From NCBI GenBank assembly GCA_944323285.1, contig CALURV010000030.1, positions 1 through 61,840 of the forward strand: a stretch of DNA of 61,840 nucleotides, read 5' to 3'. The first letter of the stretch is position 1. The number at the start of each line of letters is the position of its first letter. Shown here piece after piece: positions 36,728-45,092 of this stretch. Source of the DNA: Candidatus Gastranaerophilales bacterium. Lineage in GTDB: Bacteria; Cyanobacteriota; Vampirovibrionia; Gastranaerophilales; Gastranaerophilaceae. The notes under the pieces are model-generated. The model was given only the letters and a program-made list of their open reading frames with translations, did not search any database and had not been told where the DNA came from. The position numbers and the translations under genes are program-made.

Positions 36728-37990
36728 CTATTTTAATGGAATTGCAATTTCAAACAATGTTTCAACATTATTTGAATGAACTAAAGATATACTTCCATTA
36801 ACAAGTTCCATTTGCTTTTTACATACCGCCAAACCTATTCCGTTTCCTTTCTCTTTCGTAGTAAAATCAGGTTCAAATATCTTATTTTGTATATCTTTTG
36901 GAATCTTATCTCCGTTATTCTTAACAAAGACTTTAACTACAGTTTTTTCTATAAAACAATCAATTGCAATACTATTTCCTTTACTGCAAGCTTCTATAGC
37001 ATTAAAAATTAAATTCAACAATGCACATTGAAATTTGGTTTTATCAGTATTTACTATGTACTCATCAAATTTATTAACAATAACATCAATTCCTTTTAAT
37101 CTTGCTTTTTCCTCGCACTGCATAACAATTGATAAAATTGCATTTCTTAATTCAAATTCTGTTTTGTATGGAGAAGAAAGACATCTTAAATCATTTATAT
37201 ATGAAGAAATGCTCTCTGATGCTGTTACTATATTATTTAAAGCATTATTAATTGATTTAATAACATCTTCTTGTATTACAACATTTTCCAATCTTTTTTG
37301 TGTAATTTTGGTATATAAATTAATAATAGAAAGATTATTCTTTATTTCATGAGCAATAAATTTTGCCTTATCTGCAACTATTGAAGCAGTTTCCAATCTA
37401 TCATCGTTTTTAAGTATCTGTTTTTTTTCAATTTCAGAGAACTTAATTTCTTCTATCTTACTATCTAACTTTGAAGCTATTTCATTTATTGATCTGTTTA
37501 ATAATCTATTTTCACGCCTATCAGCTTGAAATTTAAACAATATATCTTTTATATCGAGATTAGAGTTATCATATATTTTTTTTGCTATTTCTGTTATTAA
37601 TTTAGAATTATATAAAAAACAAACAGGTGAACAATCCGTTTTATCAGACAATGTATAATCCCATATAAGACAAGAAGAATATCTGTCTCCTAAAATCAAT
37701 ACAAACTCTGTGCTGCCCCAAATATCTTCTTTTTGGATATTTTCATATTCAAATTTATCTAAAATTTCAGAATATGAATATATAGATGACCTTGAAAAAG
37801 CCAGTCTTTTAATTATTGACTCTTTTTTTTCTAAATCAAACAATCTGAATAATATACAATTCTCAAATTTCTGATTTTCTATAACCGGAACTAAAATCGC
37901 ACGAAAGAGACCATCAATGGTCTCTTTACAGCATTCCTTTATTGAATTTTCTACTATATATTTATGCAGAGTATTATAATTACTTTTCAT
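36728..37990 (-). CDS. Cytosolic sensor histidine kinase
   Basis: 420 residues, without membrane helices or signal peptide. The N-terminal half (1-190) is a sensory region with no recognised domain, followed by a short coiled coil. The H-box HEIKNNLSIINLYTKI carries the phospho-accepting His214; N-box LLNLIFNAIEA, G1 IFEPDFTTKEKGNGIGLAVC and the following ATPase motifs are complete. It follows the response regulator by seven bases, so they form a two-component pair. ATG 37990 is preferred over TTG 38008. A perfect 11-bp inverted repeat lies in codons about 22-29 (37904-37927). Confidence 0.9.
   Translation of the reverse strand: MKSNYNTLHKYIVENSIKECCKETIDGLFRAILVPVIENQKFENCILFRLFDLEKKESIIKRLAFSRSSIYSYSEILDKFEYENIQKEDIWGSTEFVLILGDRYSSCLIWDYTLSDKTDCSPVCFLYNSKLITEIAKKIYDNSNLDIKDILFKFQADRRENRLLNRSINEIASKLDSKIEEIKFSEIEKKQILKNDDRLETASIVADKAKFIAHEIKNNLSIINLYTKITQKRLENVVIQEDVIKSINNALNNIVTASESISSYINDLRCLSSPYKTEFELRNAILSIVMQCEEKARLKGIDVIVNKFDEYIVNTDKTKFQCALLNLIFNAIEACSKGNSIAIDCFIEKTVVKVFVKNNGDKIPKDIQNKIFEPDFTTKEKGNGIGLAVCKKQMELVNGSISLVHSNNVETLFEIAIPLK
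37904..37927. repeat. Perfect inverted repeat inside the histidine kinase gene
   Basis: AAAGAGACCAT (37904-37914), two bases, ATGGTCTCTTT (37917-37927). As RNA it would form an 11-bp stem, about 70-85 bases into the coding region. It encodes KETIDGLF in the kinase. It could be an operator, an attenuating hairpin or chance. Confidence 0.6.
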
Positions 37991-37997
37991 AAAATAA

Positions 37998-38708
37998 TTA
38001 TATAGCAATTTTTAATTTTTTTCTATTCAAAAATCCATTATTTATAGCATATAAAACAGCTTGAGTTCTATCGTTAACTTGAAGCTTTTGAAAAATATTA
38101 TTTACGTGAGTTTTTACTGTTGTTTCACTTATAAATAACTGCTGAGCTACACCTTTATAAGTAACACCTTGTGTTAACAATTCTAAAACTTCTTCTTCTC
38201 TTTGTGTTAAATATTGAAGCAAATTTTCTTGATTTGTATTTGTTGCTGTTTCTTCCTTAAATGATTTTTGAAAATATTCAAAGAAACGAGAAGAAAGACC
38301 TGAAGGAAGATAAATTTTTCCTTGCATTACTTCTTCTATTGCATATATTAATTGCGCAGAGGCCATTGTTTTAAGAATATAACCTTTAGCACCTATTTTC
38401 ATAGCTCTAAAGATTAAATCAGGATCATCATATCCTGTTAAAGCGATGATTTTTGTCCCCAAATTCAAGCGTTCTATTTCACTTATTGCTGTTAAGCCAT
38501 CTTTTTCTGGCATATTAATATCCATTAAAATAACGTCGGGTTGATACTTTTTTACCAGATTGATTGCAATATTTGCATTTGTTGCTGTGGCTATTACTTC
38601 AAAATTTCCTTCTAAGTTTACTAATTCCCTAATCCCCAACAAATGATCAAAATTATCATCAACTAAAATTATTTTGATTTTTTTGTTAAATTCAATATTT
38701 CTTCTCAT
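37998..38708 (-). CDS. LuxR/NarL-family response regulator
   Basis: 236 residues from ATG 38708 (AAGG at seven bases); a GTG at 38714 with AGGGAG is an equally good start. The receiver domain (about 10-130) has IILVDDNFD, phospho-acceptor Asp63 in VILMDINMPEKDG, and IALTGYDD then AKGYILK with the conserved Lys. The C-terminal HTH (about 165-230) reads LTQREEEVLELL, GVAQQLFISETTVKTHVNNI. It lies seven bases before the histidine kinase and is thus its likely partner. Target genes unknown; the nearby CpaE/CpaF-like pair is a candidate by position only. Confidence 0.93.
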   Translation of the reverse strand: MRRNIEFNKKIKIILVDDNFDHLLGIRELVNLEGNFEVIATATNANIAINLVKKYQPDVILMDINMPEKDGLTAISEIERLNLGTKIIALTGYDDPDLIFRAMKIGAKGYILKTMASAQLIYAIEEVMQGKIYLPSGLSSRFFEYFQKSFKEETATNTNQENLLQYLTQREEEVLELLTQGVTYKGVAQQLFISETTVKTHVNNIFQKLQVNDRTQAVLYAINNGFLNRKKLKIAI

Positions 38709-38954
38709 ATACACACCTTAGCTCCCTGTAAATACCATGCCTGTACTATTTATATTACATGTGTATATATGAGTACTCATCCACACTAAGATTTATTTAT
38801 ATATAGTAAAAGATTTATTTTGTTATCTAAATCCAAAGATCAATAAATCCTCCCTAAATATTGATTTTCTGTCTTTCTAACCATAACATCCTAATTTTTT
38901 ATTTTATTTATTTATAATAATAATCTTTCAAATATTTGTATGATTTATATTAAG
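38709..38954. other. Intergenic region upstream of the response regulator
   Basis: About 245 AT-rich bases, between the response regulator start and the end of the CpaF-like gene. On the minus strand GGGAGG (38845-38860 region) precedes a TTG frame of only six codons, too short to call. The promoter of the two-component pair should be here, but I cannot fix its boxes. No gene or known RNA seen. Confidence 0.4.
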
Positions 38955-39776
38955 TTAAATACTTCTCTTCTTTGATTTTAATTTTTCTTTTAGTAATTTA
39001 TATTTATTAATTTTTACTTCTTTAGTATTATCTAGCTCTTTATTTTCTATTTCTACAGGTTCTTTTAAATCATTTAATTCGTCATTATATAATGTTTCAT
39101 TTTTTATGTTATTAGATAAATCAGAAATAACCTCAGTGAAATTGCTACATTCTTCCTCTGTATTATTATTTACACTTTTAGGATATAAACAAACTAAAGA
39201 TAAATTTTTATCTTTATATTCAATAGTCCCAATATTACTTACATAAAATAAACCATCTGCATTTTTATTAATATATACAATAATAGAATTAGATAATCCT
39301 AATAAGTTCTCAACAGCACAATCTGTCAAATTTTTATAATAAAGCATTATCAAAGTTTTTATACTTTCTAATATATTTTCATAAGTTTTTATATCTATGG
39401 TATAAATAAAACTTTTATATCCATACAATATAAATTCTAATATTTTAACAAAACCTAATATATCAATATCTGGAACAATTATTCTATTAGCCTTAATAAA
39501 TTGTATATCTTTATTAATATCATACAATAACTCTACATTATCAGTATCTTTTATAAACATTTTAATATATTGAGCACAAATAGTATTATCACAATCAATA
39601 CTACTTGCAACAATTATATTTTTATTATTACAAATAGCATCCTCTATAATAATATTAACATCACTATTTGGAAGAAAAATGTCTAATACATCAACATCTT
39701 GCTTAAATTCAATTTGATTATTATTTTCTGATATTATAGACTCTTTATATAAATTTAATCTATCTTTAAATTTCAT
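38955..39776 (-). CDS. Degenerate CpaF/TadA-like protein without a P-loop
   Basis: 273 residues. Residues about 36-215 follow the layout of the CpaF/TadA secretion ATPase: DVNIIIEDAICNNKNIIVAS, then an Asp/Glu region ELLYDINKDIQFIKANRIIV, GFVKILEFILYGYKSFIYTI, TLIMLYYKNLTDCAVENLLG and a final NADGLFYVSNIGTIEY. But where CpaF has GxxGxGKTT this protein has ASSIDCDNTICAQY, so it cannot bind ATP normally; the Walker B GE and LR arginines are also missing. The rest, about 215-273, is a charged tail. It follows the CpaE-like gene by two bases. It could be a pseudo-ATPase regulator or a relic. Homology is by eye only. Confidence 0.55.
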   Translation of the reverse strand: MKFKDRLNLYKESIISENNNQIEFKQDVDVLDIFLPNSDVNIIIEDAICNNKNIIVASSIDCDNTICAQYIKMFIKDTDNVELLYDINKDIQFIKANRIIVPDIDILGFVKILEFILYGYKSFIYTIDIKTYENILESIKTLIMLYYKNLTDCAVENLLGLSNSIIVYINKNADGLFYVSNIGTIEYKDKNLSLVCLYPKSVNNNTEEECSNFTEVISDLSNNIKNETLYNDELNDLKEPVEIENKELDNTKEVKINKYKLLKEKLKSKKRSI

Positions 39777-39778
39777 AT

Positions 39779-40897
39779 TTATACTCTATTAACAATATAT
39801 TTTGCTACCTTATTATAACTTTTTACTATATCTAAATCAGAATTTATTTCTCTAATTGTTTTTCCTCTATTTGAAGCAGCAGAAGTTACCATTAAATTCA
39901 TTGGTATTTTATAAAATATTTCTCTTTTTAATACTGTTTCTATTTCATTTAACTTTACATCATCTTTTGAACGATATTTATTTAATAAAACTCTAACTCT
40001 TTTATGTGATAAATTCGTACTAATAAACCTACTGCTTCTTTGATTTGCAGTTATACTTGAAGTTATAATATAAAAAATAACATCAGAATTATTAAATATT
40101 GTTTCATTAGTAACATCCATTGACAAATTAACATCTACAATAACATATTTAAAATAATTTTTAGCAAAGTTAAAAAAGTTTTGTACATTATCAAAAGCCA
40201 ATCTTGTACCACTACTTTTATATAACCCGTTTGAAATGATATATAGAGAAGATTTTTTATAATTAAATACTCTTGAGAATAAAACTTGCGCATTATTTTC
40301 AGTAATATTTTGAATATAATAGTTAGTATCAAAAACAGGATCAATATCTAATGAGAAAGTAACATTATTTAAGTTATCATTAAAATCGATAAGTAAAACT
40401 CTTTCTCTGGTAATACCTGCCAGTTCTCTTGCTATATTAATAGAAAAGAATGTTTTTCCACACCCTCTTTCATAAGATGTAACTGCAATTATTTTAGATT
40501 TATTATCTTTTGCAGGAACCAACATTTCTTTCTTATATTGTTTTTTTATAGCAGTTAAAAAATCTGCTTTTACTAAAGGTTTTCTTAAATACTCTTTAGC
40601 CCCTGCTCTTAATGCTTTTACATATATATCAGTATTTATTTCAGATGTCATTATAAAAAATATATTTCTAGGATTATCAGACAATATTTTTAAATCTTCT
40701 AAAATAGAAATATTTCTTTTGCTAATATCTATAAAAATAAATTTATATGATATCTCATCTTTTATTAATGATTTATCAAATTCATTATAACGCAATATTT
40801 CATAAGGGAAATCACACTCTTCTATATATCTTTCAATAAGAGTTCTAGATAAATCATCTTGATCAAAAATTAAGATTTTAATGTTTGCTAAATCCAT
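39779..40897 (-). CDS. CpaE-like protein: receiver-like domain plus MinD/ParA ATPase
   Basis: 372 residues from ATG 40897 (MDLANIKILIFDQDD); an in-frame extension upstream crosses the trmFO start and is rejected. Residues 1-125 are a receiver domain (Asp11-12 region, IFIDIS phospho-site, IMTSE, KEYLRKPL). Residues about 140-370 are a MinD-type ATPase: KIIAVTSYERGCGKTFFSIN, VLLIDFNDNLNNVTFSLDI and VIVDVNLSMDVTNETIF. The P-loop reads ERGCGKT, lacking the signature first Lys of KGGxGKT. CpaE proteins localise Tad pilus machines. No other Tad gene except the adjacent CpaF-like one is here. Confidence 0.82.
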   Translation of the reverse strand: MDLANIKILIFDQDDLSRTLIERYIEECDFPYEILRYNEFDKSLIKDEISYKFIFIDISKRNISILEDLKILSDNPRNIFFIMTSEINTDIYVKALRAGAKEYLRKPLVKADFLTAIKKQYKKEMLVPAKDNKSKIIAVTSYERGCGKTFFSINIARELAGITRERVLLIDFNDNLNNVTFSLDIDPVFDTNYYIQNITENNAQVLFSRVFNYKKSSLYIISNGLYKSSGTRLAFDNVQNFFNFAKNYFKYVIVDVNLSMDVTNETIFNNSDVIFYIITSSITANQRSSRFISTNLSHKRVRVLLNKYRSKDDVKLNEIETVLKREIFYKIPMNLMVTSAASNRGKTIREINSDLDIVKSYNKVAKYIVNRV

Positions 40898-42667: not shown

Positions 42668-43068
42668 TGAACAAAAAATTCTTTATGTATAAATGGATAC
42701 CTTTTATTATTTAAATAGAAAAATTGAATTATGTATTTCCCAGGTCGTTGTATAACAATATAATTTCTGTATATCTGATCTGATTTTACTATAGATATAT
42801 CATTAGATTGAATTATAGAAAATCCCCAATTAGAAGTTTTTTCATTCTGCGACGATATTTGCATACGCATACCCGAATATTTAAAACCAGCCGGAACTAC
42901 GACAGTATAATATATTCTTTGACCGCAAGAAAATACCCTCTCTATCCTTTTCATACTCTCTATATTTGCATATGAAGAAGATAATAAAACATATGGTTTT
43001 TCTTTGTTCTTAAAACCGCAAAAAAATATTGTCAGAAATATTAAAAATACAATTGATATTTTTTTCAT
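42664..43068 (-). CDS. Exported hypothetical protein
   Basis: 134 residues with an N-terminal hydrophobic leader (MKKISIVFLIFLTIFFCGFK); the Cys at 17 could be a lipobox but the preceding residues (IFF) are not ideal. The mature part looks beta-rich (RIYYTVVVPAGFKYSGMRMQ, KYIIQFFYLNNKRYPF) and may be an Ig-like or protein-binding fold. It is linked by four-base overlaps on both sides (TPR gene, YkgJ gene). No family recognised. Confidence 0.78.
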   Translation of the reverse strand: MKKISIVFLIFLTIFFCGFKNKEKPYVLLSSSYANIESMKRIERVFSCGQRIYYTVVVPAGFKYSGMRMQISSQNEKTSNWGFSIIQSNDISIVKSDQIYRNYIVIQRPGKYIIQFFYLNNKRYPFIHKEFFVQ

Positions 43069-45092
43069 TCTTCACTTGTTTTTTCAACTTTTTCTATTTG
43101 TTTTTTTAAGTTATTTATTTTGTTTTGTACATTATTCTTTAAACTTTTATCTTGAGAATATTCAACAAATTGTTCATAATTTTCAATACTTTTATCTATA
43201 TTTTTTTCTTTCTCATAAGCAAGACCTAATGCATAATAAGCATAAGCATAATCTTTTTGAAGTTCAATTACTTTTAAAAAACTTTCCTTTGCGGCTGTTA
43301 AATCATTTGATTCCGCTTCGCATAAACCAATATTAAAAAATGCATCAGGATTATTTGGATTTATTCTTATTGATTTTTTATAAGATTCTATTGCTTCATC
43401 TAATTTTGATAATCCTTTATTTGCATTACCAATTTTAATATATAAGTATTCATCGTTATTCTTAAGAACTTCTGCTTTATTATAATTTAAAAGGGCATTA
43501 TCATAATCTTTATTCTTATAATAATTATCTGCCATTTGTGTATAATAATTGTATTTGTCATCAACAGAAACAGATGAAGTATTCATTGCTTTTTCATATA
43601 CCAATTTTGCTTCTTCTGTTTTATCGTACTTTGTAAGAGCTTTGGCATAAGAAGATAATACATCACCATTTTCAGGAGCAATTTCCATTGCTTTTTCATA
43701 ATACTCGATTACTTTTGATTTTGAACCTATTTTATCATAAGCATTTGCAATATTTATGTATAATAATGGGTTGTTACTATCCATTTTTAAAGCTGATTCA
43801 TAACTTAATACAGCTTTCTTGTAGTTACCGCTCTCGTACAAAAAATCACCTTGAGCAACATATGCTTTTAATAAATATCCTTTTATCTTCTCGTTAGACG
43901 AATCTTTTTCTAAAAGTGATTTATATATATCAATTGCTTCCTGATACTTCTTTTGAGCGTGATAAGCAACTGCCTTATTTAAAAGTAAATCTGTGTTTTC
44001 TGGTTCCATCGATAATAAAGAATCATATATAATAATTGCTGATTCATAGTTTTTATCTAGGTGATAGGCTTTAGCAAGTTCCATTTGTATATCAACGTTC
44101 TTAGGCGCCATTTGACGACCTAAAGACAATATTCTTTCTGCATTTTTATAATCACCTTTTTGTGAATATAGTATTCCTGCATTTAAATATGCTATTTCAT
44201 TATCTTTGAAAGTTTTTAGATACTCTTCATATTGAACTATAGCTTCATCTTTGTTGTTATTGTCTGCAAGTAAATTAGCATAATCGAATCTGATAGAATT
44301 CATCTCCGGGTTTAAAGCAAGAACCTTAGAAAATTCCCCTATTGCTTCTTTCTCTTTATGCTGAGCCAAATATACGTATGCTAAATTAGCCATGGCTACA
44401 TAATCTTTACTATCTTTTGCAATTGCTTTTTGCAATATTCTTTCTGCATTATCATAATCAGAAATTCTATACAAAGCTAAGCCATAATTAGAAAAATCTG
44501 TAAATGAAGACGGGTCTTTTAAATATATTTCATTATATATTTCAACAGCATCTTTTGGTTTATTCATTCTTAAATACAAAGAAGCCATATTTTCTCTGGC
44601 ATCAAGTGCTTCAGGATAATATGTTAAAAACATTTGATAATATTTTATAGCTTCTTCGTCTTCTTTTAAATAAGCCTTTACACTTGCAAGATTTAAATAA
44701 TTGTATTTATATTCAGGAAACATCTTAAGAGCTTGATTATACGCTGTATATGCATTTTTATAATCTTGCATTTGTTCAAAAATATTGCCAAGACTAATAT
44801 AAATAAAAGCATCGTCAGGATTTATTTTTAAAGCCTTTTTATACGCATCAACTGCATCTTCCCACTTCCCAAGTTCAGAATACATACCTGCAAGTTTTGT
44901 ATATAAAAGAGCATCATCAGAAGATAATTGAATTGCTTTATTCAAATTTTCTACAGCTTCCGTATATTTACCGTCATCGCCAAGTTTACAAGCATTTCTA
45001 TAATATTTATTTGCTTCAACTGTCATAGCAAAAGCACTTGATGCCATAAATGAAGATACTATAACTATCGATATAATTAATTTTATATTAAT
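43065..45092 (-). CDS. Large exported TPR protein, probably with an ATT start codon
   Basis: About 675 residues. From ATG 45047 the protein would begin MASSAFAMTVEANKYY, in the middle of a signal peptide. Reading upstream in frame, codons from 45092 give INIKLIISIVIVSSFMASSA then FA, a perfect Sec signal, and AGGAGG stands eight bases before the ATT at 45092-45090; no ATG, GTG or TTG occurs in frame in between. So initiation at ATT is likely. The mature protein is about 17 tetratricopeptide repeats (consensus ...A...YE+AL..+P.N...Y...G), ending in a basic/acidic coil KINNLKKQIEKVEKTSEE. A periplasmic scaffold is likely. It overlaps the next gene by four bases. Confidence 0.88.
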   Translation of the reverse strand: MNIKLIISIVIVSSFMASSAFAMTVEANKYYRNACKLGDDGKYTEAVENLNKAIQLSSDDALLYTKLAGMYSELGKWEDAVDAYKKALKINPDDAFIYISLGNIFEQMQDYKNAYTAYNQALKMFPEYKYNYLNLASVKAYLKEDEEAIKYYQMFLTYYPEALDARENMASLYLRMNKPKDAVEIYNEIYLKDPSSFTDFSNYGLALYRISDYDNAERILQKAIAKDSKDYVAMANLAYVYLAQHKEKEAIGEFSKVLALNPEMNSIRFDYANLLADNNNKDEAIVQYEEYLKTFKDNEIAYLNAGILYSQKGDYKNAERILSLGRQMAPKNVDIQMELAKAYHLDKNYESAIIIYDSLLSMEPENTDLLLNKAVAYHAQKKYQEAIDIYKSLLEKDSSNEKIKGYLLKAYVAQGDFLYESGNYKKAVLSYESALKMDSNNPLLYINIANAYDKIGSKSKVIEYYEKAMEIAPENGDVLSSYAKALTKYDKTEEAKLVYEKAMNTSSVSVDDKYNYYTQMADNYYKNKDYDNALLNYNKAEVLKNNDEYLYIKIGNANKGLSKLDEAIESYKKSIRINPNNPDAFFNIGLCEAESNDLTAAKESFLKVIELQKDYAYAYYALGLAYEKEKNIDKSIENYEQFVEYSQDKSLKNNVQNKINNLKKQIEKVEKTSEE

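Follow-up and report, generated by a model that had tools for sequence, protein, structure and literature searches.

In the Tad pili of Caulobacter, six dimers of CpaE have been modelled around the CpaF hexamer, with contacts predicted, and CpaE is held responsible for the localisation of the secretin (PMC13170226). When the disordered N-terminus of Caulobacter CpaF is truncated, ATPase activity is intact and only pilus dynamics are reduced (PMC12019362). Partner proteins of ParA/MinD ATPases, including ParB, MinE, and PomX, stimulate the ATPase via a short N-terminal or near-N-terminal peptide with essential positive residues (PMC13170346). A deviant Walker A is known in TadZ, from structural work on E. 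rectale TadZ (PMC13170226), and Ssd (Rv3660c), an Actinobacteria homolog of CpaE, is described as acting on septation/cell division and not on pilus assembly (PMC3095998). Here, we describe a gene pair made up of members of known families (CpaF fold and CpaE), for which Ssd of mycobacteria is the nearest precedent found of a CpaE-like protein with another job. No description of a CpaE without tad genes and with an eroded CpaF was found in the open-access literature searched.

The window (the whole 61,840-nt stretch of DNA analysed) lies on a contig of the 1.86-Mb genome G000, and the named relatives that carry the pair's second gene are Candidatus Gastranaerophilales genomes assembled from gut metagenomes. 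The minus strand was found to encode, in order: (i) gene A, a CpaE/TadZ-type protein of 372 aa (39779-40897); (ii) gene B, an eroded CpaF of 273 aa (38955-39776), separated from A by 2 nt; (iii) a NarL/LuxR-type response regulator (37998-38714) about 240 nt downstream of B; and (iv) a histidine kinase (36728-38008) that overlaps the regulator. Both open reading frames of the pair were thus recovered as in the preliminary description of this DNA, which had placed them right after a two-component system; A and B are in fact upstream of the regulator and kinase. Farther out, a few genes from A and B and beyond TrmFO, the window also carries a 660-aa TPR-repeat protein (43065-45047) with 92% identity in G140, the nearest relative.

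Database searches with the B sequence alone were of little help, with no credible Pfam match and, as the best of NCBIfam, an uninformative VirB11 hit (7e-4, residues 20-65). Assignment of B as an eroded CpaF was based on profile alignment, predicted structure, and a bridging homolog. The AlphaFold model has a confident RecA-like core at residues 30-200 (39177-39689, minus strand; pLDDT 85-96 per 10-residue block), a linker predicted to be disordered at residues 202-253 (39018-39173; pLDDT <50), and a final helix at residues 258-272. This basic C-terminal helix is conserved in the genus alignment (38958-39017; consensus NKYKLLKEKIKxKK). The top Foldseek PDB matches to the model were CpaF structures (8rkd, 9e24, and 8rjf; E 1.2e-8 to 1.3e-7), and VIA-align superposed B residues 28-204 on CpaF 247-459 (Z 17.2, rmsd 2.8, 177 residues), with Z-scores against the three CpaF structures (17.2, 16.8, and 16.0) higher than those for VirB11, FlaI, PilT, and GspE. 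An hhalign comparison of 25 B orthologs from the genus and 12 of the order's intact CpaFs gave an E-value of 2.5e-4 over 164 columns at a modest probability (43). The two families are bridged by L047 of genus g41, which matched the B profile at 3e-20 and the CpaF profile at 1e-42.

The core of B corresponds to the C-terminal ATPase domain of CpaF devoid of its catalytic motifs. At the P-loop position, the hhalign alignment to CpaF places SSIDCDNTI where GGTGAGKTT is expected (39579-39605, minus strand), and NIIVASSIDCDNTI stands in B at the CpaF position of NIVISGGTGAGKTT. The Walker A sequence GxxGxGKT was absent from B of the window and from 28 of 28 aligned orthologs of the genus; therefore, the window copy is no chance mutant. 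The Walker B (IIxGExRG) and His box (GHDGSxxTxHAN) were likewise not detected in B, which reads IIVPDIDI and GYKSFIYTIDI at the respective columns, and both are lost in all eight genus proteins placed on the CpaF alignment. The CpaF N-terminal domains, which include the arginine-rich nucleotide-contact region, are absent from the B alignment, B being 273 aa long versus about 500 aa for CpaF. What B shares with CpaF/TadA (PDB 8rjf, 8rkd, and 9e24) is the RecA-like C-terminal fold with its order of strands and helices, a position after CpaE, and the N-terminal start of the order's own CpaFs, with MKFKDRLN (39753-39776, minus strand) as the counterpart of MSLKDRL. Unlike CpaF/TadA, B has no P-loop, Walker B Glu, His box, or N-terminal domains, is half the length, lacks TadB/TadC partners, and has acquired a new conserved basic C-terminal helix. 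On this combination of sequence and modelled fold, B is a CpaF-derived pseudo-ATPase; it lacks the catalytic features that define CpaF, and the name of CpaF motor does not apply to it. The preliminary description, which had proposed a CpaF/TadA-like fold with a lost P-loop, was borne out on both counts: the CpaF fold was matched and no genus ortholog was found with an intact GKT.

Of 58 relatives searched, 31 gave a match to B, a set that is in essence the genus of the window, and B adjoins A in the genus loci that were read, so that the same pair does recur in relatives. Conservation of B across the genus was found to be concentrated at its two ends. Mean entropy was 1.03 bits over the first 8 residues (M1 and R6 invariant in 28/28) and 1.04 bits over the last 17 (N257, K258, L262, and K265 invariant in 28/28), versus 1.4-2.8 bits for the rest of the protein, including 2.25 bits at the P-loop site.

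Gene A consists of an atypical receiver (residues 8-117) followed by a ParA/MinD ATPase domain (residues 134-372), as supported by Pfam (AAA_31 1e-8, CbiA 5.5e-9, and Response_reg 2.6e-5), an AlphaFold model of pLDDT 89, and VIA-align matches of this model to the ParA-family structure 3ea0 (Z 28.4) and to MinD (Z 24-26.1). Furthermore, a profile built on A retrieves the CpaE of intact tad loci. With CpaE/TadZ, A shares the domain order, the GKT, and a location directly upstream of a CpaF-derived gene. It differs in the loss of the signature Lys, seen in 26/27 CpaE of the genus, in a receiver Asp that is mostly replaced by Asn there (23/27, with Asp still present in A of the window), and in the lack of a Tad apparatus in the genome. 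Like Ssd, A is a CpaE-like protein that would serve something other than pilus assembly; however, the NCBIfam Ssd model gave a weak match to A (23 bits against a cut-off of 154), and we know of no eroded CpaF partner for Ssd.

The deviant Walker A of A, ERGCGKT (40451-40471, minus strand), is real as first noted, with the signature Lys replaced and the GKT kept. This lysine is normally needed in MinD-type ATPases. Outside the genus of the window it was present at 108 of 109 CpaE loci, compared with 1 of 27 within, and both the lysine and GK[TS] are kept at the 89/89 remnant-bearing and 8/8 CpaE-alone loci outside the genus. For most of the family, CpaE thus has the appearance of a functional switch. 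In the genus itself, 26/27 retain GK[TS], and, because the GKT core is retained, A can probably still bind ATP. The earlier suggestion that both proteins lose key ATPase residues therefore stands for B, while for A it is limited to the signature lysine, and the corollary that A is likely dead as an ATPase is not supported. Still, the missing lysine makes stimulated hydrolysis doubtful in this genus, and, as judged from sequence, an ATP-binding scaffold with slow or no turnover is as likely there as an active ATPase.

The tad locus was surveyed by profile searches across 192 genomes of the order, 170 of them in the same family as the window; families and genera are given by working labels, with g1 the genus of the window. 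The genomes are mostly metagenome assemblies, so that gene absences are stated as profile-search results, and the family counts of CpaE, CpaF, and CpaB were tallied by hand from tables. CpaE was detected in 175/192 genomes of the order and 159/170 of the family. An intact CpaF was found in only 11 of these 170, and the same 11 carried the CpaB of a tad locus; one genome of g30 had an additional weak match to the CpaB model (E 3e-4) of doubtful meaning. A complete locus (CpaB-RcpA-CpaE-CpaF-TadB-TadC) was present in families f2-f4, in f5 on part of a contig, and in genera g33, g35, g38, and g43 of the family itself, with CpaB, CpaE, CpaF, TadB, and TadC in the distant f8. Except in f8, the CpaFs of these tad loci start with M/L-S-L/I-K/R-x-R-L, like B. 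In most genera of the family the tad machine is lost and CpaE is kept, usually with a CpaF remnant directly behind it. The transition can be followed at one position, between genes identified from their sequences as CinA and RibD, where g35 and g43 have the full tad locus, g34 has only CpaE and a remnant, and g40 has only CpaE. This shows that the tad locus was eroded in place. The tad-bearing genera are split between two parts of the CpaE tree (deep support is weak, 51-72), which indicates at least two losses. CpaE is also found with no CpaF remnant in five genera (g31, g36, g37, g40, and g44) and hence can act alone.

In the genus of the window, the profile search detected no CpaB in any genome, and no match of TadB/TadC size was seen beside A and B or among the matches listed for g1. 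The CpaF profile found no second CpaF in the window genome, whose PF00437 matches comprised PilB, two PilT-like proteins, one GspE/PilB-like protein whose P-loop is poor, and two hits below threshold; a hidden second CpaF was rejected since this profile scored none of them like a CpaF. The GspE/PilB-like protein (L077 976-2364, G000:C15; P-loop GSSLSGKTH) adjoins a response regulator and a histidine kinase and may represent another degenerate secretion ATPase of this genome. With neither CpaB nor another CpaF in the genome, the proposal of the preliminary description that the pair is repurposed rather than part of a Tad apparatus is supported. A new sensory or localisation system had also been suggested; the pair is not an isolated new sensory system but one stage of an erosion of the tad locus that runs through the family.

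CpaF remnants were next to CpaE at 117 loci in 18 genera, including the B set of the window's genus. These remnants range from 98 to 491 aa and variously lack the P-loop, the Walker B, the His box, or the entire ATPase. A P-loop-like G-x4-GK[TS] persists in g20, g24, g26, and g32, with many others devoid of it, and g22, g23, g30, and g39 have lost most or all of the ATPase domain. Common to nearly all is the N-terminal motif. When scored by a strict pattern within the first 20 residues, [S/N]-L-x-x-R-L was present in at least 114 of the 117 remnants, compared with 15.9 of 117 on average after shuffling and with 9% of internal windows; two of the three misses were mis-picked start codons (L115 and g45). 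As a control, although limited to a single genus and two genomes, g42 has a CpaF remnant with no CpaE at all; here the motif is absent and GQTKSGKTTL is kept. A further, C-terminal copy of the motif is seen in about half of the genera (of 127 best secondary matches, 54 fall within the final 25 residues, versus 12.4 expected). The two-end arrangement is not claimed for B, since C-terminal copies in the window's genus are at the level expected (2/28 versus 2.2). Beyond the group, Burkholderia CpaF (MSLREQL) resembles the motif and Rhizobium (GIMGRF) does so loosely, while it was not found in the CpaFs of Photobacterium, Cupriavidus, Priestia, and Azospirillum; a universal SLKDRL in CpaF is therefore unsupported, the CpaFs of other phyla being mostly without it.

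We consider it probable that A and B are the residue of a tad locus, with CpaE kept as a switch of the ParA/MinD type and CpaF kept only as its partner. The platform of the pilus, its secretin, its alignment protein, and the activity of its motor were lost, and by this model the N-terminal peptide of B (M-N/S-L-K-D/E-R-L, with the invariant Arg6) would dock on the CpaE dimer by analogy to the N-terminal basic peptides with which ParB, MinE, and PomX bind to ParA/MinD ATPases and stimulate them. The dead RecA domain of B would serve as a scaffold or spacer, and in the genus of the window the disordered tail and basic C-terminal helix may hold cargo or membrane; stimulation of the ATPase and a role in positioning would be expected by the same analogy. 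At the level of sequence, B resembles ParB, MinE, PomX, and McdB in being encoded beside a ParA/MinD ATPase and in its short N-terminal peptide, of which one basic residue never varies; it differs from them in its secretion-ATPase origin and in having no recognised DNA- or organelle-binding domain. The persistence of SLKDRL, with its invariant Arg, for as long as CpaE itself persists is in keeping with a docking or activating role. Counting against the model are the genera in which CpaE has no CpaF remnant, the loss of the signature lysine in the genus of the window, the scarcity of the motif among CpaFs of other phyla, and the Caulobacter CpaF whose N-terminal truncation leaves ATPase activity unaffected and only reduces pilus dynamics (PMC12019362).

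Service to a type IVa pilus, in which CpaE would position the T4P machine and B would contact PilB/PilT-type hexamers or PilC, is unlikely. In its favour, the secretion-ATPase fold oligomerises and is retained in B, and the genome keeps PilB, two PilT-like ATPases, and PilC-type proteins. However, A and B were not linked to T4P genes at any locus read, and the remnants of g22, g23, g30, and g39 are retained without the ATPase fold; hence, hexamer mixing is not the general role.

Slightly less probable is that A and B regulate the adjacent two-component system, with A or B binding the LuxR-type regulator to control its output. FleN, which is MinD-like, acts in this manner on FleQ, and the model of A matches FleN (VIA-align Z 23-24) and includes a receiver domain. 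The regulator follows B in nearly all loci of the genus, as do regulator and kinase in g41, a close relative; outside g1 and g41 the neighbours of the pair are instead CinA/RibD or UvrB. The 240-nt gap suggests a separate transcript, and the regulator has remained frozen (dN 0.002) while B changes fast, which argues against a tight interface. The link to the two-component system that had been drawn at the outset is thus weak. In g41 (L047 2713-6259), homologs of the regulator and kinase adjoin genes named by sequence as FlgB, FlgC, FliE, and FliF; this two-component system is therefore possibly a flagellar regulator that outlasted the canonical flagella.

Other flagellar-type genes were observed outside the window. 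At G000:C28:52557-57935 (L186), a divergent FlhA (~700 aa) is encoded together with proteins resembling FliF (555 aa), FliE (113 aa), and a lytic transglycosylase. A FliF-family protein was detected in 190/192 genomes of the order, and a better-scoring FliF (E ~1e-55) in some of them, g1 not included; the L186 genes are possibly a universal second flagellar-type export apparatus. In addition, a protein of ~490 aa (G000:C8:61448-62461) that matches only the C-terminal half of FlhA (321-652), found in almost all of the order's genomes that were searched, appears from its sequence to be a soluble FlhA-C paralog.

That B is a functionless relic, decaying with a tad locus on its way out, is improbable. 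Its rapid evolution is in keeping with decay (about 62% identity versus 99.6% for the neighbouring regulator and 94.5% for UvrD), as are the five genera with no remnant beside CpaE. Against this, the frame of B is open in every genus ortholog read, the tight A-B spacing is kept, and the terminal motifs are nearly invariant. Estimates of dN/dS between G000 and G140 were 0.26 for B, 0.10 for A, and 0.02 for the response regulator, and over all finite pairs they ranged from 0.01 to 0.48 (all <0.5, with some dS values near saturation). Ratios remained low where the ATPase domain is gone, at 0.011-0.024 for the 107-aa remnant of g22 and 0.011-0.031 for the domain-less remnants of g22 and g30 together. 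These values disfavour a pseudogene; A, B, and the remnants are maintained genes under purifying selection. The response regulator (37998-38714) stands out in the same comparison as nearly frozen, with 99.6% protein identity and a dS of 0.08 versus 0.3-0.96 for its neighbours, a pattern suggestive of a recent transfer or of constraint on the DNA itself. Finally, that B is an ordinary CpaF motor damaged in this assembly, as its CpaF fold and start motif might imply, was rejected as next to impossible given 28/28 orthologs without a P-loop, the missing CpaF N-terminal domains, and a genome with no CpaB and no other CpaF.

Returning to the retained CpaE and its CpaF-derived partner, the decay of the motor in one lineage after another, with its front-end tag surviving, suggests that the motor is now no more than a docking partner. 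In the genus of the window A and B have both moved further, and the pair there may be a static scaffold. The chances are about even that, repeatedly and in parallel within one family, a pilus motor was turned into the partner of a ParA/MinD-type switch, with the ATPase discarded and the N-terminal docking peptide (plus a C-terminal repeat in about half of the genera) kept by selection, to yield a stand-alone two-protein spatial or regulatory system. The family amounts to a natural deletion series for CpaE-CpaF communication in Tad pili, as every piece except CpaE and a short CpaF peptide is missing from some lineage, while the one genus that lost CpaE has lost the peptide as well. The contact it predicts, of SLKDRL with the CpaE dimer, would be testable in any Tad system of the group. 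Overall, the findings suggest an independent function for CpaE in common gut bacteria devoid of a Tad pilus.
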